Assembly: GCA_016215605.1 (NCBI GenBank)
Contig: JACRJB010000067.1
Coordinates: forward strand, 1-64,000
DNA length: 64,000 nucleotides
Reading direction: 5' to 3'
DNA from: Rhodopseudomonas palustris
Lineage (GTDB): Bacteria > Pseudomonadota > Alphaproteobacteria > Rhizobiales > Xanthobacteraceae
The position numbers and the translations under genes were made by a program. The notes beneath the pieces are model-generated. The model searched no databases and was not told the DNA's origin. It saw nothing but the letters and a program-made list of their open reading frames with translations. Shown one piece after another: positions 38,425 to 56,638 of the stretch. The stretch's first letter is position 1; every line of letters starts with the position of its first letter.

Positions 38425-39669
38425 TCACCGCCCCTTGGTCGGAATCTGGTTGAACGGCACGTCCTTGTCGACACGGATGTCGCCCGGCAAGCCCAGCACG
38501 CGTTCGGCGATGATGTTGCGCAGGATTTCGTCGGTGCCGCCGGCGATGCGCATCGACGGCGAGCCGAGCAGCATCGCCTGGAAGCTGCCGCCGGCTTCAG
38601 CTTCCGCCGGATCGGTGAACACGCCCGCGGCGCCTTCCAGATCCATCGCGAAGGCCGCAATGTCCTGCAGCATCGGGCCGGCCACCAGCTTGCCGATCGA
38701 ATTTTCCGGGCCCGGCCGCTCGCCCTTCGACAGCGCCGAGATCGAACGATACGACGTGTACTTCAAACCGCTCGCCTTGACCGCCCAGCTGGCCAGCTTG
38801 CTGCGCACCGCCGGATCGTCGATCGCCGGACCATTGTCGGTCACCAGATCGTTGCAGAACGCAAAGATCTCCGGGAAGCCGGTGGCGAGCCGCGCGCCGA
38901 TCGACATGCGCTCGTTCATCAGCGTGGTCAGCGACACGTTCCAGCCGTCGCCGACATTGCCGAGGCGCTGGCTGTCGGGAATCCGCACATTGGTGAAGAA
39001 CACCTCGTTGAATTCCTGCATGCCGTTGGCCTGCTTGATCGGCTTCACCTCGACGCCTTCGCTCTTCATGTCGAGGAAGAACATCGTCAGGCCCTTGTGC
39101 TTGGGCACGTTCGGGTCGGTACGGGTGATGAGCAGGCCGTAGTCGGAATAATGCGCGCCGGAGGTCCAGATCTTCTGGCCGTTGATGATCCAGTCGTCGC
39201 CGTCCTTCTCGGCGCGGGTGCGCAGACCGGCGACGTCCGAACCGCCGGCCGGCTCGGAGAACAGCTGACACCAGATGTTCTCGCCCGACGCCAGCTTCGG
39301 CAAGTACTTGCGCTTGTCGTCTTCGCTGCCATAGGCCATCACGGTCGGGCCGCACATGCCCTCGCCGATCTGGAACGGCTGGGTGAGCTTGCCGTAGACG
39401 CCCTCTTCCTGCTGCCAGATCACCTTCTCGATCGGCGTCGCGCCGCGGCCGCCATATTCCTTCGGCCAGGTCAGGCACGACCAGCCGCCCTCGGCCTTCT
39501 TCTTCTGCCACGCCTTGCCGACCTCGACGATGTCGGCCTTCTTCAGGCTGATGCGGCCGAGACCGGATTTGGTCAGCTCCTGCTCGTATTGCTTCGGCGC
39601 GTTGGCATCGATCCACGCGCGAGCCTTGGCGCGAAACTCGGCTTCCTGCGGGGTATCGTCGAAGTTCAT
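38425..39669 (-). CDS. acyl-CoA dehydrogenase, large-subunit type, paralog 1
   Basis: A 414-residue FAD acyl-CoA dehydrogenase with N-terminal helical, middle beta (LFSEPAGGSDVAGLRTRAEKDGDDW) and C-terminal helical domains. It is very similar over its whole length to the next gene upstream (39774-41021). At the usual catalytic Glu site (IYEGTSQI in MCAD) it reads IAGGTDEI, a Gly. Loss of this Glu is seen in large subunits of heteromeric bacterial acyl-CoA dehydrogenases, and a 375-aa partner-like gene lies two genes upstream. Substrate unknown; probably a branched, aromatic or cyclic acyl-CoA. Confidence 0.9.
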   Translation of the reverse strand: MNFDDTPQEAEFRAKARAWIDANAPKQYEQELTKSGLGRISLKKADIVEVGKAWQKKKAEGGWSCLTWPKEYGGRGATPIEKVIWQQEEGVYGKLTQPFQIGEGMCGPTVMAYGSEDDKRKYLPKLASGENIWCQLFSEPAGGSDVAGLRTRAEKDGDDWIINGQKIWTSGAHYSDYGLLITRTDPNVPKHKGLTMFFLDMKSEGVEVKPIKQANGMQEFNEVFFTNVRIPDSQRLGNVGDGWNVSLTTLMNERMSIGARLATGFPEIFAFCNDLVTDNGPAIDDPAVRSKLASWAVKASGLKYTSYRSISALSKGERPGPENSIGKLVAGPMLQDIAAFAMDLEGAAGVFTDPAEAEAGGSFQAMLLGSPSMRIAGGTDEILRNIIAERVLGLPGDIRVDKDVPFNQIPTKGR

Positions 39670-39697
39670 CTCAGCCTCTCGTTCTGGTCTCAGCGCC

Positions 39698-39770
39698 GTA
39701 GGATTTTGCGAAACCCATCGACTAAGCGCTCTGTTGAATGATGGGTTTCGCTGCGCTCAACCCATCCTAC
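39698..39770. repeat. palindromic repeat, family F (GTAGGAT...ATCCTAC)
   Basis: GTAGGATTTTGCGAAACCCATC at one end mirrors GATGGGTTTCGC...AACCCATCCTAC at the other. It occupies nearly the whole gap between the tandem acyl-CoA dehydrogenase paralogs. Confidence 0.75.
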
Positions 39771-39773
39771 GTG

Positions 39774-41021
39774 CTACGCCCGCCCCTTGGTCGGGATCTG
39801 GTTGAACGGCACATCCTTGTCGACGCGGATGTCGCCCGGCAGGCCGAGCACGCGCTCGGCGATGATGTTGCGCAGGATCTCGTCGGTACCGCCCTCGACG
39901 CGGGTCGCCGGCGAACGCAGCAGCATCGCCTGGAAGCGGCCAGCGACGTCGGCGTCCTCCGGCCCGCTCAGCACGCCCGCGGCGCCCTGCAGGTCGAGTG
40001 CGTACATCGCGACTTCCTGGATCATCGAGCCGGCAACCAGCTTGCCGATCGAATTTTCCGGTCCCGGTCGCTGCCCCTTCGACAGCGCCGAGATCGAACG
40101 GAAGCTGGTGTATTTCAGCCCGCTCGCTTTCACCGCCCAACTCGCCAGCTTGGATCGCACCGCGCGATCGTCCAGCGCCGGGGTGCCGTCGAGCGTCAGC
40201 GAATTGCAATAGTCGAACAGCTCCGGGAAACCGGTGGCGACGTTTGCGCCGATCGACATGCGCTCGTTCATCAGCGTGGTCAGCGACACGTTCCAGCCGT
40301 CGCCGACGCCGCCGAGGCGCTGGCTGTCGGGAATCCGCACGTTGGTGAAGTACACTTCGTTGAAGTCGGAATTGCCGTTGGCCTGCTTGATCGGCCGCAC
40401 TTCGACGCCCTCGCTCTTCATGTCGAGGAAGAACATCGTCAGCCCCTTGTGCTTGGGCACGGTCGGGTCGGTGCGGGTGATCAGGATGCCATAGTCGGAA
40501 TAATGCGCGCCGGAGGTCCAGATCTTCTGGCCGTTGATCACCCAGTCGTCGCCGTCCTTCTCGGCACGGGTCCGCAGGCCGGCGACGTCGGAGCCGCCGG
40601 CCGGCTCGGAGAACAGCTGGCACCAGACCTTCTCGCCGGAGCCGAGCGGCGGCAGATAGTGCCGCTTCTGATCTTCCGACGCGTAGGCCATCATCGTCGG
40701 GCCGCACATGCCCTGGCCGATGATGAACATCGCCGTGAGCTTGCCGAACACGCCCTCTTCCTGCTGCCAGATCACGCGCTCGATCGGCGAGGCGCCGCGG
40801 CCGCCATATTCCTTCGGCCAGTGCGGCACCGCCCAGCCGGCGTCGGCCTTCTTCTTCTGCCACGCCTTGGCGACGTCGAGGACGTTGGCGTCCTTCAGTA
40901 CGACGCGGCCGAGCGACGCCTTGCGCAGGTCGGACTCGTATTGCTTCGGCGCGTTGGCGTCGATCCAGGCACGCGCCTTGGCGCGGAATTCAGCTTCCTG
41001 CGGGGTATCGTCGAAATTCAT
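39774..41021 (-). CDS. acyl-CoA dehydrogenase, large-subunit type, paralog 2
   Basis: A 415-residue acyl-CoA dehydrogenase nearly matching its downstream neighbour from N-terminus (MNFDDTPQEAEFRAKARAWIDANAPKQYE start) to C-terminus (DKDVPFNQIPTKGR), clearly a tandem duplication. Differences concentrate in the first 100 residues and around PLGSGEKVW. The catalytic-Glu position reads EGGTDEI, again Gly where MCAD has Glu. It follows the 375-aa acyl-CoA dehydrogenase and may pair with it in an alpha2beta2 enzyme. Keeping both copies suggests two substrates or regulation. Confidence 0.9.
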   Translation of the reverse strand: MNFDDTPQEAEFRAKARAWIDANAPKQYESDLRKASLGRVVLKDANVLDVAKAWQKKKADAGWAVPHWPKEYGGRGASPIERVIWQQEEGVFGKLTAMFIIGQGMCGPTMMAYASEDQKRHYLPPLGSGEKVWCQLFSEPAGGSDVAGLRTRAEKDGDDWVINGQKIWTSGAHYSDYGILITRTDPTVPKHKGLTMFFLDMKSEGVEVRPIKQANGNSDFNEVYFTNVRIPDSQRLGGVGDGWNVSLTTLMNERMSIGANVATGFPELFDYCNSLTLDGTPALDDRAVRSKLASWAVKASGLKYTSFRSISALSKGQRPGPENSIGKLVAGSMIQEVAMYALDLQGAAGVLSGPEDADVAGRFQAMLLRSPATRVEGGTDEILRNIIAERVLGLPGDIRVDKDVPFNQIPTKGRA

Positions 41022-41047
41022 CAGTTCGAATCCTTGTGCTGCCTCGT

Positions 41048-41170
41048 GCCCCGGACGCTGCGCAGCGCGAAGCGGTGCGCTGCAGAACCGGGGCCGTTAC
41101 AGATGCTGACCTCGCGACGGTCCCGGCTCTGCGGAGCGGCATGAAGAATGCCGCACCGCGTCCGGGACAC
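41048..41170. repeat. palindromic repeat, family D
   Basis: Runs from GCCCCGGACGCTGCGCAGCG to CACCGCGTCCGGGACA. Lies between acyl-CoA dehydrogenase genes of the same strand. Confidence 0.7.
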
Positions 41171-41178
41171 GCTTGTTG

Positions 41179-42306
41179 TTACGCCGCGTTCTTCTGGCGC
41201 ATGCGGTCGATCAGCTGATCTTCCCAGTACGACTGGCTGCCGAGCGCCAGCGCCAGCGCGTTGGAGCGGCGATAGTACAGATGGCAGTCGAACTCCCAGG
41301 TGAAGCCCATGCCGCCATGGACCTGGATGTTCTGCTTGGCGCAATGCTGGAACGCCTGCGTGGCGCTGATCCGCGCCGCAGCCGCCGCCTCGGCGAGTTC
41401 GCCGGCGTCGGTCGAGAGCGCCCAGGCGCCGTAGTAACAGTTCGAGCGCGCCAGCGTCGCCGAGACGTACATGTCGGCGAGGATGTGCTTGATCGCCTGG
41501 AACGATCCGATCGGACGGCCGAACGCGATGCGATCGAGTGCGTAGTCGCGGCCCATCTCCAGCGCGCGGTCGGCGCCGCCGACCTGTTCGAACGCGATCA
41601 GCACCGCGGCGCGGTCCAGCACCCGCGACAGGATGCTCCAGCCTTCGCCCGCCGCACCGAGCGGCTCGGCCTTGGCGCCGTCGAACGCCAGCTCGGCCTG
41701 CTGCCGCGACGGATCGACGTTCTGCAGCGGCTTGGCCGTGACGCCGCCGGCCTTGAGATCGACCAGGAACAGCGAGATGTCGGCCTCGCGGCCGCTGTTT
41801 CCGGTGCGCGCCGCAACGATCGCGAAGTCGGCGATCGCGCCGTCGGCGACCGGCTTCTTGGTGCCGGAGAGGGTGCCGTTGGAAGCGGCAATTTTGATCG
41901 CCTTCGGCGACGGGTTGCCGGTGCCTTCGAACAGCGCCAGCGTGCCGATCGCTTCACCGGACGAGATCTTCGGCAGCCATTTCTGCTTCTGCTCGACGCT
42001 GCCGGCGATCAGCAGCGCCTCGGCGGCGAGATACACGGTCGAGGCGAACGGCACCGGCGCCAGCGCGCGGCCGAGCTCCTCGGCGATCACGCACAGCTCG
42101 AGATATCCCGCGCCCGTCCCGCCGAACTCCTCCGGGATCGCGACGCCGAGAAAGCCCATCTCGGCGAGCCCCTTCCACAGCTCGCGATCGTAATCCGCCT
42201 TGCCTTCGAGCACGGCACGCACCGCGCGCGGCGGGGACTTTTCGGCCAGGAACCGCCTCGCCTGATCGCGCAGTTGCTTCTGGTCGTCGGAGAAATCGAA
42301 ATTCAT
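41179..42306 (-). CDS. acyl-CoA dehydrogenase, small-subunit type
   Basis: A 375-residue acyl-CoA dehydrogenase-fold protein (IPEEFGGTGAGYLELCVIAEELGRAL, HGGMGFTWEFDCHLYYRR near the C-terminus). It is shorter than classic family members and ends soon after the HGGMGF region, lacking the EGT segment. This pattern fits one subunit of a heteromeric acyl-CoA dehydrogenase, with one of the two 414/415-aa neighbours as partner, as known for steroid-degrading actinobacterial enzymes. The pairing is inference. A leader with AACAACAACG...ACGCCC precedes the ATG. Confidence 0.88.
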   Translation of the reverse strand: MNFDFSDDQKQLRDQARRFLAEKSPPRAVRAVLEGKADYDRELWKGLAEMGFLGVAIPEEFGGTGAGYLELCVIAEELGRALAPVPFASTVYLAAEALLIAGSVEQKQKWLPKISSGEAIGTLALFEGTGNPSPKAIKIAASNGTLSGTKKPVADGAIADFAIVAARTGNSGREADISLFLVDLKAGGVTAKPLQNVDPSRQQAELAFDGAKAEPLGAAGEGWSILSRVLDRAAVLIAFEQVGGADRALEMGRDYALDRIAFGRPIGSFQAIKHILADMYVSATLARSNCYYGAWALSTDAGELAEAAAAARISATQAFQHCAKQNIQVHGGMGFTWEFDCHLYYRRSNALALALGSQSYWEDQLIDRMRQKNAA

Positions 42307-50594: not shown

Positions 50595-50817
50595 TCGGAC
50601 CTCGCACACGCAGAACGCGTAGGGCATCGCGACGAGTTGCGCGGCGTCTTCGGGACGCCGCGCATGATGCCTTGCCGGCGGCCCTCTTCGGGCCCCATGC
50701 TGCGACCTCGCCTTGGGAAGTCAGCGACGGCATTCGCCGGACCGTGACCAGATAAGGAGTCCCGCCGCCCGACCGGGCACGCTATGCTGGCGTCTTCCTT
50801 GGTCGTTGCTGGTTCCC

Positions 50818-51663
50818 ATGACGGTCCGCTTCCCGATCCGCGCCGGCGTTGCCGCGTCCGTTCTGGTCCATCTCGGGCTGGTCGGCGCGGTGCTGCTGTT
50901 CGCCGAGGTGCGGCCGTTCGCCGAGGTGCCGGAGCAGCGGATCGAGGTCGACGTCGTCACCGCCGACGAGGCGCCGCCGGCGCCCGCGCCCCCGCCTGAG
51001 ACCAAGCCTTCGCTCGATCTGCCGCAGACCAAGCCGACCGAACAGACCAAGCCGCCCGCGCAGGCCGCGCCGCCACCGCCGCCGAAACCCGAAGCACAGA
51101 AATCGGAACCAAAGCAGCCGGAGCCGACAAAGCCCGAGCCTCCCAAGAAGCAGGCCGCCGCGCCGACACCGGAACCGCCGAAACCCGAACCGCCGCAGCC
51201 GATGCAGGCCGCCCCCGCGCCGACACAGCCGCAGCAGCCGTCGACGCCGTTGCCGCCGGCGATCGCGCAGGAGCCCGACCTCACCGTCAAATATGCGGTG
51301 GCGCTCGGGCTGCCCGCCGATCCCACCTTCGATGCGCCGTCGGAGATCGCCGCCGATATCAGCGCCGACGCCATCGCGGCGTTGCGGAAGCGGCTGAAGT
51401 CTTGCGCGCCGCTGCCGGCCCCGGTCACGCCGTCGGACAATGTGAAGATCGTGCTGCGGGTGGCACTGCAGCCCGACGGCCGGCTGGCACAGGAACCGAT
51501 CCTGATCGAGGCCAGCGCCTCGGCGAAGGGTCCGGCGTTGATGAAAGGCGCGATCGCGGCGCTGACCGCGTGTCAGCCCTACAGCATGCTGCCGGCCGAC
51601 AAATACAAGGAATGGAAGGTGCTCGACATCGACTTCACGCCGCGAGATTTCCGCGGCGGTTAG
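50818..51663 (+). CDS. TolA/TonB-like cell-envelope protein
   Basis: A 281-residue protein with one N-terminal TM helix (about 9-29, AGVAASVLVHLGLVGAVLLFAE), a long Pro/Lys/Gln-rich periplasmic stretch (about 45-145), and a ~95-residue C-terminal domain (IAALRKRLKSCAPLPAP, VKIVLRVALQPDGRLAQEP, TACQPYSMLPADKYKEWK). The layout is that of TonB/TolA energy-transduction proteins, and the C-terminus resembles alphaproteobacterial TolA-like proteins. No tolQR or exbBD genes are visible, so its partner is unknown. Confidence 0.78.
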   Translation: MTVRFPIRAGVAASVLVHLGLVGAVLLFAEVRPFAEVPEQRIEVDVVTADEAPPAPAPPPETKPSLDLPQTKPTEQTKPPAQAAPPPPPKPEAQKSEPKQPEPTKPEPPKKQAAAPTPEPPKPEPPQPMQAAPAPTQPQQPSTPLPPAIAQEPDLTVKYAVALGLPADPTFDAPSEIAADISADAIAALRKRLKSCAPLPAPVTPSDNVKIVLRVALQPDGRLAQEPILIEASASAKGPALMKGAIAALTACQPYSMLPADKYKEWKVLDIDFTPRDFRGG

Positions 51664-51827: not shown

Positions 51828-51856
51828 AGAAAGCTCCGGAACCGCCGGAGCTTCAA
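51828..51856 (-). terminator. rho-independent terminator of the outer-membrane protein gene
   Basis: Stem AAGCTCCGG / CCGGAGCTT with 5-nt loop. Read on the minus strand it is followed by TCTTTATTTT, a good terminator about 55 nt after the stop of the gene at 51909-52613. Confidence 0.8.
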
Positions 51857-51908: not shown

Positions 51909-52613
51909 CTACCGGCCGTTGAACCGATAGTTGAGCTTGAGCGCCACCAGATCGAGATCCTGCTGAATCCGGTAGACGTCGGCGGTCGGCGCGAAGCTGA
52001 TGTCGCGGCGGCCGAGGAAGAGGTGATTGTACTCGGCAGCGATCGACACATGCTCCGAGAACGCCAGTTCGAAGCCCGCGCCCACCGTCGGGCCCCAGCG
52101 GGTTTCGGAGGCGCTGGCGAAGGTGATACCGGTGTCGGTGGCGAACACATCGTATTTCTCATGCACCACGCCGGCGCCGCCCTTGGCGTAGAGCAGCGCA
52201 TTGTTCAGCGCGTAGCCGAACCGGCCGTTGATCAGTCCATAGGCGTCGATCAGCGTGCGGTTGCTCTGGTTGGCGAACAGCAGGCTCGCGCTCGAACCTT
52301 GCGCCCGGCCCCAGTCACCCTGCGCTTCCGCGCCGAACACCCAGCTTCCGGCCTGGACGTCGAAGCCGACCTGGGCGCCACCGAACAGGCCAGTGAAGTT
52401 GTGCGCGCCGTCGTCGCCGGTCGGCAGCAGCGGGCCGACATACGCCCAGCGCTTGTCCGACAGCGCGACGCTGCCGTTGAGGCCGATCGAGAAGCCGGTC
52501 CAGTCGTAGAGCTTGACCACCGGCGCCGTCTTGACCGGCAAATCGGCCGCCAGAGCCGGCGGCGCAACTGCCAACGCCCACAGGCCAACCACTGCCAACA
52601 ACAATGATCTCAT
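51909..52613 (-). CDS. small outer-membrane beta-barrel protein (Omp25/Omp31 type)
   Basis: A 234-residue protein with signal peptide (MRSLLLAVVGLWALAVAPPALA, cleavage about residue 22) and an 8-strand barrel-like mature part of the Omp25/31 porin-like family: DWTGFSIGLNGSVALS, FTGLFGGAQVGFDVQ, GRFGYALNNALLYAKGGAG, TVGAGFELAFSEHVSIAAEYNHLF and DLVALKLNYRFNGR at the end. The ATG at 52613 replaces a longer in-frame start at 52667. It lies 126 nt downstream of the cytochrome/barrel gene on the same strand and may be part of that unit. Confidence 0.85.
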   Translation of the reverse strand: MRSLLLAVVGLWALAVAPPALAADLPVKTAPVVKLYDWTGFSIGLNGSVALSDKRWAYVGPLLPTGDDGAHNFTGLFGGAQVGFDVQAGSWVFGAEAQGDWGRAQGSSASLLFANQSNRTLIDAYGLINGRFGYALNNALLYAKGGAGVVHEKYDVFATDTGITFASASETRWGPTVGAGFELAFSEHVSIAAEYNHLFLGRRDISFAPTADVYRIQQDLDLVALKLNYRFNGR

Positions 52614-52739
52614 CGTCAATCCCCTGCCCCTGCGTCCGCCCGGACGCCTCAAATGGCTTCGCTTCAATGCGCCGCCGGCACCGGCCGGCGTCGTGACCGG
52701 TGACGTGCCGCGGACGATCGCCGCGGCACCCGGATCGCG

Positions 52740-54416
52740 TCAGAACAAAATCGTCGAGTACAGAATGAAGGTGTTCTTGTCGTGCGGCGTCAGCGTGTCG
52801 CCGTTGAACTTCGTGAAGTAGAAATACTGCGCGCCGATCCGCGTGTTGAACCACGGCCAGTACGGCGCCTTGCCGGTGCCGAACGGCAGATAGGCGAGCT
52901 CGGCCATGAAGCCGGTAGTGTCGGGCACCGTCCCCCAGTTCGGATCGACCGGCGTCGGACCGTACAGCCCGGCGTCGGGCGAGCCCCAGGTCCGGAAGTA
53001 CTGGCCCGTCGCCACGACGCGATTGTCGCCGCCGATCGCCACGGTCGAACTCACCCGCAACGTGTTCAGCGAGTTGGTCAGGTTCACCGGCGTCGATGCA
53101 CCGACATAGCCGGCATCGTAGCGCTGCTCCTCGCGGATATAGGCGGCCTTGAAGATCACCCAATAGTCGTCGCCGCGGTACTGATACTGCGTGTCGACGC
53201 CGAAATCGGTGTACTTGTTGGTGAGCGCGTACGGTGTATCGGCGATATTGCCGGTGACATCGAGCGGCACCGGCACGCCGGCGACCGACCAGGGCGCAAC
53301 CTCGAACCGGCTGGCAAAGCCGCCGATCATCAGATTGTGGTCGCCGAAGCGCTGCTCGAGTGCGGCACGTCCATAAGGCGCGACGCCCGCGATCTGACCG
53401 GGGCTCCCGAGCGGGCCGGCACCGAGGCGGGTCGCCGCGGCGACGCCGAGCGTCTTGTAGCCAGTGGCTTCCAGATACAGCATGTCGTTGATGAACAGAT
53501 AGCCACCGAGGCCACCGACCTTCTGCCCGTACTGCCCGTCGATGATGGTGGTGGTGGCCGGTCCGGTGAAGCCGAGCTGGGTGGTGAAGTAGGGATGCGT
53601 CCAGGCCGGCGCCGTATTCCAGACGTCCTGCACGGTCGGATTGTTGTGCGCGGTGATGCCGAACAGCACGTCCACCCCGCCGACCTGACCGGTGCCGGCA
53701 TAGCGCACGTCGACGTTGTCCCATCCCCACGTTCCGGTCGCATCGCCGATCGCCGGGAAGCCGTAGGTCAATTGCGCGAACACGCCGATGTTGTCGCTCA
53801 TCGCGCCGCCGCCGAACAGGCTGGCCTGCGCCATCCCGATGTTGTCGTTCGCCTTCCAGTGGTTCACGCCCGGCGCCCAGCCGGAATCCGGCGCCTGCGT
53901 GCGGGTGTAGCCGGAGATCAGCATGACCGCGAGCGGCGGCATCCAGCCGCGATCCTCTTCGGCCTCGGGCTGCACGGCGGCGAAGGAATTCGTGATCACC
54001 TGCTGTGCGCTGCCCTGCGGCGGCTTCCTGGCCGGATCGGCCGCGCGCGACGTCGTCTCCGCGTAGGAGCGCAATTCGGCGACGGCATCCTTGGGGGCGC
54101 TGCCGGGCGACAGCACGCTGTTGAAGTCGCTGACACTCGGGAACACCTTGCCGGATGGCGGAATCGGAAACAGCGTCTTGCGGAACGGGCCGCCGCCGAG
54201 CGTGTAGCCGCCGAGCTTGAAGCGCCGGCCGAACGGCGTGAGGCCGAGGACGTCGGTGTGGCAATTGCCGCAGGGCTGGCCGGTCTGCCGCGCAAACAGC
54301 GGCAGCGCCTCGGCGGTCGGCGCCGTCATCAGCAGCATCGCCCAAACCGCCGAGCCCGCGGCAGCGAGCGTCAGGACCACGGAGAGTGTCTTCTTCAAAT
54401 GTGCGACGTCGTTCAC
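52740..54416 (-). CDS. monoheme cytochrome c / outer-membrane beta-barrel fusion (Cyc2-like layout)
   Basis: A 558-residue protein from a GTG at 54416, which follows GGGGG; an earlier TTG lies at 54506. A signal peptide spans about residues 8-37. A single heme c motif CGNCH is at residues 49-53, inside FARQTGQPCGNCHTDVLGLTPFGRRFKL. About 450 residues of alternating polar/aromatic strands follow, ending NTFILYSTILF with the terminal Phe typical of outer-membrane barrels. A heme domain joined to a porin-like barrel is the design of Cyc2 iron oxidases; several uncharacterised cytochrome-porins share it. It lies 105 nt downstream of a HiPIP gene on the same strand. A role in moving electrons across the outer membrane is inferred. 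Confidence 0.72.
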   Translation of the reverse strand: MNDVAHLKKTLSVVLTLAAAGSAVWAMLLMTAPTAEALPLFARQTGQPCGNCHTDVLGLTPFGRRFKLGGYTLGGGPFRKTLFPIPPSGKVFPSVSDFNSVLSPGSAPKDAVAELRSYAETTSRAADPARKPPQGSAQQVITNSFAAVQPEAEEDRGWMPPLAVMLISGYTRTQAPDSGWAPGVNHWKANDNIGMAQASLFGGGAMSDNIGVFAQLTYGFPAIGDATGTWGWDNVDVRYAGTGQVGGVDVLFGITAHNNPTVQDVWNTAPAWTHPYFTTQLGFTGPATTTIIDGQYGQKVGGLGGYLFINDMLYLEATGYKTLGVAAATRLGAGPLGSPGQIAGVAPYGRAALEQRFGDHNLMIGGFASRFEVAPWSVAGVPVPLDVTGNIADTPYALTNKYTDFGVDTQYQYRGDDYWVIFKAAYIREEQRYDAGYVGASTPVNLTNSLNTLRVSSTVAIGGDNRVVATGQYFRTWGSPDAGLYGPTPVDPNWGTVPDTTGFMAELAYLPFGTGKAPYWPWFNTRIGAQYFYFTKFNGDTLTPHDKNTFILYSTILF

Positions 54417-54521
54417 GATGGCCCCCAAGTATAAATATAAGCAGCAATCACCGGTCGCCGGCCCGCAGCCCGATGCGGCTACGGCGGCGTTCACGGCCGT
54501 CTTCAATCCAAGCGGCTGAGC

Positions 54522-54809
54522 TCAGCCCTTCGCGGCGTAGAGCGAGCACCACCCATTCGCGCTCACCGAGCCTTCAACGACCTTGCACGTGCTCGACGCC
54601 GCAACGTAGTTGGAGCACTTTCCGCAACTTTGGCCGTTGCGCGGCGACGCCTGATACTGCGCGGCATTCTTGGCCATCTTGTTGTCAGCCAACGCGTCGT
54701 TTGCAGCCAGGCCGACGACCGCAACGGCGCCGACAGCCGTCGCCGCAACCTTGAAAAGGCCGCGACGCGAGACTTCCGGAGAACACACTTCACGCGCAAT
54801 TTTGGTCAC
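54522..54809 (-). CDS. high-potential iron-sulfur protein (HiPIP), Tat-exported
   Basis: A 95-residue HiPIP. The N-terminus has a twin-arginine signal (SRRGLFKVAATAV, Arg15-Arg16, ending near ALA-D about residue 42). The mature ~54 residues hold the four cluster Cys at 62, 65, 75 and 88 (C-x2-C-x9-C-x12-C, with W before the last Cys), the pattern for one [4Fe-4S] cluster. HiPIPs carry electrons in the periplasm, for example to the photosynthetic reaction centre, and PioC of R. palustris is one. The GTG at 54809 follows GGAGG by about 6 nt. It is first in the unit with the heme/barrel gene. Confidence 0.92.
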   Translation of the reverse strand: MTKIAREVCSPEVSRRGLFKVAATAVGAVAVVGLAANDALADNKMAKNAAQYQASPRNGQSCGKCSNYVAASSTCKVVEGSVSANGWCSLYAAKG

Positions 54810-55168
54810 AGCTTCCTCCCGATCTGTTCAGGTTTTTTGAACGGTTTTTGTTGGACGACACGCCGCTTCGCGGCAGACGACAATCGTTAGCAATTGACCG
54901 ACTGTCGGCCGAAATAGTCGTTATTAGCTATTTACTCATCATCGCAACTACGCGCGCAATAAATACGCCACTCGTTACAACTAACCATTATCATCGATTC
55001 ACAATCGTCGTCAATCAACTAATCGTCGAGTTTTACATTTTGTGTCCGAAATAGGTCCGCCAAATCCAGATCCAGCGGTAAAGTCCAACAATAAAGCGCT
55101 CCTGCAATGCATTTGCGTCGAGATTACTGCTGTGCAATACGATATCGACCATCAACGGAGTAACGACC
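54810..55168. promoter_or_regulatory. AT-rich divergent promoter region (HiPIP / amidase)
   Basis: A 359-bp region without a gene. Its centre (about 54880-55140) is much richer in A/T than anything nearby, with runs such as TTATTAGCTATTTACTCATC and many TCGT/CGAT words. It must hold the promoters of the HiPIP unit and of the amidase. I found no FixK/FNR box (TTGA-N6-TCAA) and no named operator. Confidence 0.6.
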
Positions 55169-56638
55169 TTGGCATCGGACATCAGCTTCGCAACCGCCAC
55201 CGAACTCAGCGCCGCGCTGAAGGCAAAGAAGGTCTCTGCCGTCGAACTGGCGCAGGACGCCATCGCCCGCATCGAGCGCCATGACGACAAGATCAATGCG
55301 ATCTGCGTGCGCGACTTCGACCGGGCGCTGCAGACCGCGCGCGCCGCCGACCTCGCGCTGTCGCGCGGCGGACGCGGCGCGCTGCTCGGCATTCCGATGA
55401 CGGTCAAGGAGAGCTTCAACGTCGCCGGGCTGCCGACGACATGGGGCTTCGTCCCGCAGAAAGATTTCATCGCTCAGACCGACGCGCTGGCGATCGAGCG
55501 GGTCAAGGCCGCCGGCGGCGTGATTCTGGGCAAGACCAACGTGCCGGTCGCACTCGGCGACTGGCAGAGCTACAACGAGATCTACGGCATCACCAACAAT
55601 CCGTTCGATCTCGGCCGCACGCCCGGCGGATCGTCCGGCGGATCGTCGGCGGCGCTGGCTGCCGGCTTCGGCGCGCTATCGCTCGGCTCGGACATCGGCG
55701 GCTCGCTTCGCGTGCCGGCGCATTATTGCGGCGTCTATGCGCACAAGCCGACCTTCGCGCTGTGCCCGGCGCGCGGCCACACCCCGCCGCCGCTGCCGCC
55801 GCTGCCGTCCAACCGCGATCTCTCGGTGATCGGGCCGATGGCGCGCTCGGCCGCCGATCTCGCGCTGCTGCTCGAAGTGATGGCCGGCCCCGATCCGAGC
55901 TTCGACGGCATCGGCTACAAGCTCGCTTTGCCGGCGCCGCGGCACAGCGCGCTGAAGGATTTCCGCGTGCTGCTGCTCGACAGCCACCCGCTGCTGCCGA
56001 CCGGCGCCAGCGTGCGCGGCGCGATCGAGACGCTGGCTTCAGGATTGATCAAGGCCGGCGTCAGCGTCACCCGGCAATCGCCGCTGCTGCCCGATCTCGC
56101 CGAAACCTCACGGGTCTATATGCGGATGCTGCTGTCGTTCCTCGCGGCCAGCTTCGCGCCGGAGATCTATGCCGGTGCGCAAGCCGCCGCGGCGCAGCTC
56201 GCCCCCAGCGACGACAGCCTCGCCGCCGAGCGGCTGCGCGGCATCGTGCTCAGCCACCGCGACTGGCTGATCGCCGACGGCCGCCGCATCGGCCTGCGCG
56301 CGCAATGGAGCGAACTGTTCAAATCGTTCGACGCGGTGATCTGTCCGCTGATGCCGACGCCGGCCTATCCGCACGATCATCACGAGCCGCAGGAAGAGCG
56401 CCGCATCCTGATCGACGGCCGGCCGCATCCTTACGTCGATCAGTTGGTGTGGCCCGGCATCGCGACGCTGCCCGGCCTGCCCGCGACCGCGCTGCCGATC
56501 GCGATGTCCGACGACGGCCTGCCGATCGGCGTGCAGATCGTCGGCCCCTGGCTCGAAGACTACACGCCGCTGAAACTCGCGGAGCTGATCGAGCGCGAGT
56601 TCGGCGGCTTCACGCCGCCGAAGGCGTTCGTCGACTGA
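55169..56638 (+). CDS. amidase signature enzyme
   Basis: A 489-residue amidase. The Ser-cisSer-Lys triad is readable as Lys80 (TVKESF), cis-Ser155 (GGSSGGSSAA) and nucleophile Ser179 (GSDIGGSLR). It hydrolyses an amide to acid and ammonia; substrate unknown. The start is TTG at 55169, with GGAG about 8 nt upstream. It is followed by a convergent alcohol dehydrogenase only 6 nt away. It is divergent from the HiPIP gene, with no obvious functional link. It is not GatA-like in context, since gatB/gatC are absent. Confidence 0.9.
   Translation: MASDISFATATELSAALKAKKVSAVELAQDAIARIERHDDKINAICVRDFDRALQTARAADLALSRGGRGALLGIPMTVKESFNVAGLPTTWGFVPQKDFIAQTDALAIERVKAAGGVILGKTNVPVALGDWQSYNEIYGITNNPFDLGRTPGGSSGGSSAALAAGFGALSLGSDIGGSLRVPAHYCGVYAHKPTFALCPARGHTPPPLPPLPSNRDLSVIGPMARSAADLALLLEVMAGPDPSFDGIGYKLALPAPRHSALKDFRVLLLDSHPLLPTGASVRGAIETLASGLIKAGVSVTRQSPLLPDLAETSRVYMRMLLSFLAASFAPEIYAGAQAAAAQLAPSDDSLAAERLRGIVLSHRDWLIADGRRIGLRAQWSELFKSFDAVICPLMPTPAYPHDHHEPQEERRILIDGRPHPYVDQLVWPGIATLPGLPATALPIAMSDDGLPIGVQIVGPWLEDYTPLKLAELIEREFGGFTPPKAFVD

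Follow-up and report, generated by a model that had tools for sequence, protein, structure and literature searches.

A Cyc2-Family Cytochrome-Porin With a HiPIP Partner in Rhodopseudomonas palustris: A Putative Electron-Uptake Cassette

Introduction

Can a Rhodopseudomonas take up electrons from outside the cell through one protein in which a cytochrome is fused to an outer-membrane porin, and which carrier would then receive them? This question is raised by three genes in a stretch of 64,000 nucleotides of Rhodopseudomonas palustris (assembly GCA_016215605.1, contig JACRJB010000067.1, positions 1 to 64,000 of the forward strand), which is called the window in the following. An earlier note on this DNA had read these genes as a high-potential iron-sulfur protein (HiPIP), a monohaem cytochrome fused to a barrel and a small outer-membrane protein (OMP). 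The three open reading frames (ORFs) have been found where that note had placed them, all on the (-) strand and transcribed in the order HiPIP, cyc2, small OMP, with a terminator-like hairpin after the last. The cassette is a Cyc2 with a HiPIP partner, a pairing known from Bradyrhizobium from which the Rhodopseudomonas form differs, and the three genes together probably serve electron uptake around the fused cytochrome-porin, as far as sequences and structure models can tell.

The note had known of no description of such a unit. This claim has to be given up, because He et al. (2017, PMC5566968) describe, citing Percak-Dennett et al. (2017), a Bradyrhizobium cluster of Cyc2, HiPIP and three cytochromes c, and report that several strains of R. 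palustris, TIE-1 excepted, possess Cyc2 homologs. The literature searched, mostly titles and abstracts, has yielded no mention of the Rhodopseudomonas HiPIP-Cyc2-OMP arrangement or of the small OMP as a constant Cyc2 neighbor.

The Cytochrome-Porin Fusion

Cyc2 proteins carry the signature AXPXFAR[Q/K][T/Y] before a single CXXCH, which has been called unique to Cyc2, and they have been screened for by PXFAR[Q/K][T/Y] upstream of CXXCH and a length of at least 365 residues; for Cyc2-PV1, a porin of 16 strands has been predicted (Keffer et al., 2021, PMC8406198). The window protein reads ALPLFARQTGQPCGNCH, i.e., ALPLFARQT followed by CGNCH, and comprises 558 residues with one CXXCH and a C terminus ending in ILF, which bears out the single-protein monohaem cytochrome-porin of the note. 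The structure prediction it had called for has been made with AlphaFold2 from 40 sequences and gives 16 strands of at least 9 residues (our own count), at a predicted local distance difference test score (pLDDT) of 70.2 and a predicted template-modeling score of 0.69. The modeled barrel spans residues 162-557; haem motif, barrel and terminal Phe stand as noted, and the supposed 450 or so barrel-like residues shrink to about 400. Porins, including OprP and OprO, make up the majority of the 50 Protein Data Bank (PDB) matches listed by Foldseek, joined by AlgE entries, four designed zinc proteins and one each of an autotransporter domain and a polysaccharide secretin. On these predictions of moderate confidence, the protein would possess the fused beta-barrel porin expected of a Cyc2. 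In signature, single haem c, length above 365 residues and predicted 16-strand barrel it resembles Acidithiobacillus Cyc2, Leptospirillum Cyt572 and Mariprofundus Cyc2-PV1, whereas the Rhodopseudomonas sequences differ from these in having Leu for the proline of the PXL motif. In Acidithiobacillus, a gene for a c4 cytochrome lies downstream of cyc2 (PMC10879576), whereas the window cyc2 is linked to a HiPIP.

In Pfam and NCBIfam, the 558-residue protein is without a matching model at E <= 1, and a PDB sequence search has returned two matches (E 0.09 and 1.3), neither of them a barrel. Its alignment to a gammaproteobacterial homolog that bears the signature reaches E 1e-58. The plasmid homologs amount to nine records, all below 60% identity and no characterized Cyc2 among them. 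No second Cyc2 has been found in the own genome, where a weak match on contig C60 (E 0.095) coincides with no CXXCH-containing ORF of at least 50 residues. The Cyc2 tree is a quick build in which long branches are flagged.

Regarding the haem site, all 40 aligned rows agree in the two Cys and in H53 of CXXCH, as well as in K67 and M165; no His, Lys or Met other than H53, K67 and M165 is invariant, and because of this invariance M165 or K67 may be considered a candidate distal haem ligand. The PXL motif following CXXCH belongs to the Cyc2 consensus, is no screening criterion and occurs in other cytochromes as well (PMC8406198); its first position holds Pro in 35 of the 40 rows, Leu in three and Ala in two, and Leu has also been found in relative G010.

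The HiPIP and Its Distance From PioC

The first gene of the cassette encodes a HiPIP, with a match to PF01355 of 26.6 bits (cut-off 22) and four Cys ligands; together with its twin-arginine motif, this agrees with the Tat-exported (twin-arginine translocation) HiPIP of the note. Its best NCBIfam match is the Iro model NF041615, which has been rejected as its family, the score of 57.5 bits falling under the cut-off of 100. The nearest solved structure is PioC (6xyv, E 6e-9). The core of the cassette HiPIP is 38-54% identical to seven PioC-type HiPIPs and falls into another group. In a tree of only 50 columns, in which 13 of 28 inner branches are open, the four cassette HiPIPs cluster (support 93/97, not starred) apart from seven PioB-linked HiPIPs. 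Among the relatives, three separate groups have been distinguished: the cassette type, which keeps GWC and has no C-terminal extension; PioC, which adjoins PioB in seven of nine PioB genomes; and a type with a C-terminal extension, which would fit the description of Rpal_4085 as a 48-residue core with terminal extensions (PMC10304953) and is provisionally given that label. All three kinds are held by G010.

The cassette shares with PioABC of R. palustris TIE-1 the phototrophic host, the outer-membrane porin, haem and a HiPIP. Unlike Pio, with its separate decahaem protein, the window Cyc2 has one haem fused to the barrel, and the cassette HiPIP groups apart from PioC. A search of the own genome for PioB (TIGR03509) at E <= 0.001 has yielded no match (PioA was not searched for), and PioB has not been found in relatives G005 and G020 either; it is present in G010. 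The sole PF11854 match over the cut-off in the own genome lies in a TonB-dependent receptor. PioABC has therefore been rejected as the identity of the cassette, and the contrast to Pio drawn in the note holds. Two adjacent PF00124 genes of the own genome have been read as reaction-centre L and M.

Gene Neighborhoods of Cyc2

Whether HiPIP and Cyc2 belong together has been asked of 61 genomes, the own and 60 relatives, eight of which match Cyc2. Six matches are long (own, G005, G010, G020, G036 and G019, the last cut by a contig end); the two others (G018 and G027) are weak matches to short monohaem proteins without a barrel and have been excluded from the Cyc2 counts. In 4/4 Rhodopseudomonas-type genomes (own, G005, G010, G020) the HiPIP gene lies immediately upstream of Cyc2; in G019 and G036 the two are on different contigs. 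By profile A7, a HiPIP is present in six of the six long-Cyc2 genomes vs 12 of the 55 others (Fisher p 3e-4), and by the Pfam model in 4/6 vs 7/55 (p 0.008), kinship being ignored in both.

A sample of 44 GTDB loci, 30 close (L033-L061, L070) and 14 distant, has been collected with alignment A1 (six sequences) and two short peptide patterns. PXFAR[Q/K][T/Y] is found in 33 of them, 32 with the leading Ala as well, and the remaining loci show FARET (five), YARQT (one), FADQT (one) or a haem region cut off or out of frame (four). The fetched stretch contains a HiPIP at 9/44 loci, all close, or at 7/42 when the two Rhodopseudomonas loci are left aside (L041 and L042 from one genome, L044, L047, L053, L055 and L070); these counts are minimum values, as several fetched stretches are short. 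The small OMP, whose window copy matches OMP_b-brl at E 1e-15, directly follows Cyc2 in 25 of the 30 close loci and in none of the 14 distant ones.

A close published parallel is the Bradyrhizobium cluster. The Bradyrhizobium Cyc2 proteins of the GTDB sample are 43-48% identical to the window protein, with a HiPIP at some of their loci (L041, L042 and L047) and the small OMP at most. In most Bradyrhizobium/Xanthobacteraceae loci, Cyc2 is accompanied by two or three dihaem cytochromes, of which the one compared with Pfam matches PF00034, one of the dihaem genes sitting between HiPIP and Cyc2 in L041, L042, L044 and L047, whereas the HiPIP is the only linked carrier in Rhodopseudomonas. Within 4 kb of the cassette, no other CXXCH ORF of at least 100 residues has been seen at the four Rhodopseudomonas-type loci (three stretches are slightly shorter than 4 kb), and the four genomes hold only distant homologs of the Bradyrhizobium-type dihaem cytochrome c, 29-41% identical. 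The HiPIP of the Rhodopseudomonas lineage takes the place that dihaem cytochromes c have in the Bradyrhizobium clusters. Judged by sequence, the Rhodopseudomonas form is set apart by three features: the HiPIP as sole linked carrier, its separation from PioC and the change of the PXL proline to Leu. As a separate observation, Bradyrhizobium erythrophlei GAS478 (L041, L042) contains two Cyc2-OMP-dihaem c-HiPIP clusters, which are separated by about 1.7 Mb and encode nearly identical Cyc2 proteins.

Beyond the close relatives, a class sample of 385 genomes contains Cyc2 in 13, HiPIP in six and both in four (Fisher p 1e-5, and 2e-4 without the own genome). Two tandem HiPIPs stand just upstream of Cyc2 in the alphaproteobacterium G130, one HiPIP followed by a cupredoxin stands just downstream in the alphaproteobacterium G064, and in G416 the two genes are on different contigs. 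As the gene orders differ in distant lineages, a functional pairing is favored over descent of one arrangement. The co-occurrence of HiPIP and barrel genes, whose failure the note had named as grounds for dropping its reading, has held in the close relatives and the wider samples. The Cyc2 neighbors found elsewhere are electron carriers too, namely dihaem c (PF00034), monohaem c and cupredoxin (PF00127).

Three further observations concern Cyc2 and similar proteins at other loci. In three alphaproteobacterial genomes, cupredoxin genes (PF00127) are located directly 3' of Cyc2 in L172 (5013-5351) and L174 (5174-5491) and 3' of Cyc2-HiPIP in L164 (6227-6571), which suggests the cupredoxin as one more interchangeable carrier. 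In metagenome-assembled genomes (MAGs) of Acidobacteria, Cyc2 is followed by a Rieske protein and a cytochrome b of about 890 residues fused to four cytochrome c domains (L065 7299-10573, L069 7276-9610, cut, L074 7321-10585, L075 7347-10648 and L064 7961-10648; PF00355 for the Rieske protein in L065, PF00033 and PF00034 in L075, no Rieske ORF listed in L064), an order that would suit a connection of Cyc2 to a bc-type complex. Short monohaem proteins with an N terminus like the Cyc2 haem domain and without a barrel occur in L008 (1366-1680), L009 (1333-1698) and L011 (1471-1698); for two of them, a PioB gene lies no more than about 3 kb away.

Layout and Conservation of the Cassette

The proteins of the cassette are 55-81% identical between relatives (cyc2 and HiPIP in four genomes, OMP in three), unlike the intergenic DNA, which is poorly conserved. 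The ratio of nonsynonymous to synonymous substitution rates (dN/dS), determined for the own genome, R. pseudopalustris DSM 123 and a Rhodopseudomonas MAG, with G010 added for cyc2 and HiPIP, is 0.14-0.23 for cyc2, 0.30-0.35 for the OMP and 0.13-0.30 for the HiPIP in five of six pairs, dS being saturated in the sixth. Given conserved proteins, a dN/dS well below 1 and this contrast to the intergenic DNA, the cassette genes represent more than chance ORFs. The coordinates are collected in Table 1.

TABLE 1. Features of the cassette and its flanks, with positions counted from the first nucleotide of the window.
Feature	Position	Strand	Remarks
HiPIP gene	54522..54809	(-)	95 residues; twin-arginine signal R15 R16; Cys 62/65/75/88 for [4Fe-4S] cluster
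Cyc2-family monohaem cytochrome-porin fusion (cyc2)	52740..54416	(-)	558 residues; N terminus hydrophobic, judged by eye to be a signal peptide; last residue Phe
CGNCH haem c site, residues 49-53	54258..54272	(-)	ALPLFARQT (37-45) ahead; PXL position is L57-G58-L59
Small outer-membrane beta-barrel protein	51909..52613	(-)	234 residues; OMP_b-brl match
Terminator-like hairpin 3' of last gene	51830..51854	(-)	10-pair stem; T-rich tail
105-bp gap between HiPIP and cyc2	54417..54521	(-)	poorly conserved; short terminator-like site 54460-54442
Proline-rich TonB/TolA-like gene	50713..51663	(+)	left flank; our reading, no Pfam match; found in cassette-free relatives
Amidase gene	55169..56638	(+)	PF01425; right flank; found in cassette-free relatives

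The start codon of cyc2 is GTG, with an alternative in-frame TTG upstream at 54506. Terminator-like sites number five in the scanned stretch vs 2.9 expected from shuffles. A conserved operator 5' of the HiPIP gene has been considered and rejected, since three relatives do not preserve the inverted repeat at 54824-54844 as such (by eye). The amidase has been searched for in the own genome, 12 same-genus genomes and eight others: in 9 of the 12 same-genus genomes, the TonB-like and amidase genes lie 0.36-0.75 kb apart with no HiPIP match between them, G010 carries the cassette, and in G005 and G009 the amidase has not been found at the threshold used. Elsewhere in the window (38425-42306), three consecutive genes have been read by us as acyl-CoA dehydrogenases, two with near-identical N termini, likely a recent duplication.

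Proposed Function and Its Alternatives

In the proposed route, Fe(II) or another one-electron donor would enter the pore of Cyc2 and reduce the single haem at its periplasmic end, from which the HiPIP would collect the electron. In the light it would deliver this electron to the photosynthetic reaction centre, whereas in air a cytochrome or an oxidase would be the recipient. The small OMP, whose role is the least certain, may aid barrel assembly, packing or substrate binding.

Several points weigh against this reading. On the side of the cytochrome-porin, the signature and plug region is modeled at low confidence (pLDDT below 50 at residues 32-48, 74-131 and 137-160) in a model without haem, the Foldseek matches reach only modest TM-scores (0.18-0.39 when scaled by query and 0.29-0.63 by target), and the PXL motif is absent from all four Rhodopseudomonas sequences, each of which has Leu for the proline. 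The function of Cluster 3 homologs has been rated the most uncertain (PMC8406198), which would weigh here if the window protein belongs to that cluster. The cassette of G010 is without the small OMP. Regarding linkage, no HiPIP lies in the fetched stretch of 35/44 GTDB loci; the HiPIPs behind profile A7 were all Cyc2-linked, and no more than 13 candidates per genome were scored in the class search, both of which favor linked HiPIPs, and unlinked ones may be under-counted; and the p values of Cyc2/HiPIP co-occurrence are uncorrected for kinship. Concerning the last step, another Rhodopseudomonas HiPIP, Rpal_4085, is reported not to reduce the reaction centre (PMC10304953). In PioC, residues A19, K20 and R48 have been reported to respond to the reaction centre (PMC10304953); the cassette HiPIP has G, Q and S in their place (alignment to 6xyv, our numbering), so that docking to the reaction centre cannot be assumed.

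The alternative that survives best is a role in metal stress as proposed for Rpal_4085, in which Cyc2 and HiPIP would oxidize or handle redox-active metals at the surface with no energy conserved. It matches the induction of Rpal_4085 by divalent metals and its inability to reduce the reaction centre (PMC10304953), and the patchy presence of the cassette (own genome and 2/15 same-genus relatives) resembles that of a niche function; the cassette HiPIP, however, is not Rpal_4085-like, with its GWC kept, no C-terminal extension and a group of its own, and the neighbors of Cyc2 elsewhere are electron carriers, which makes this role unlikely in our judgment. Export is improbable: HiPIP and Cyc2 would pass electrons outwards, for instance to Fe(III) outside the cell, and Cyc2/Cyc1 isoforms are stated to serve ferric iron reduction in acidithiobacilli (PMC10715153), but HiPIP potentials are positive, given as 50-500 mV in one abstract and for PioC as 450 mV in PMC10879576, which would make a HiPIP poor for reducing Fe(III) at neutral pH, and the own genome carries reaction-centre genes. 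A plain uptake porin whose haem site is vestigial, next to a HiPIP that is a chance neighbor on another path, would suit the loss of the PXL proline in the Rhodopseudomonas clade and the poorly modeled signature and plug region, but is likewise improbable in view of the invariant CXXCH Cys, H53, K67 and M165, the low dN/dS of cyc2 and the recurrence of Cyc2-HiPIP linkage in different gene orders.

For the electron-uptake cassette, a more specific and quite tentative version may be formulated, in which Rhodopseudomonas strains without PioB (the own genome and R. pseudopalustris DSM 123) might perform photoferrotrophy independently of Pio. Cyc2 would oxidize Fe(II), the cassette HiPIP, as a third kind beside PioC and Rpal_4085, would be the sole carrier to the reaction centre, and the PXL change would retune the haem for this HiPIP.

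Implications

Photoferrotrophy in purple bacteria has been described for the Pio and Fox systems (PMC10654088). If true, a Cyc2-HiPIP route without PioB predicts light-driven oxidation of iron or electrodes in Rhodopseudomonas strains that are not known for either. Genetic tests of Cyc2 in iron oxidizers have been reported as challenging (PMC8406198), and the cassette could offer Cyc2 a genetically workable host. As different lineages place different carriers beside Cyc2 (HiPIP, dihaem c, monohaem c or cupredoxin), the neighbor of a Cyc2 gene may point to the pathway downstream of it.

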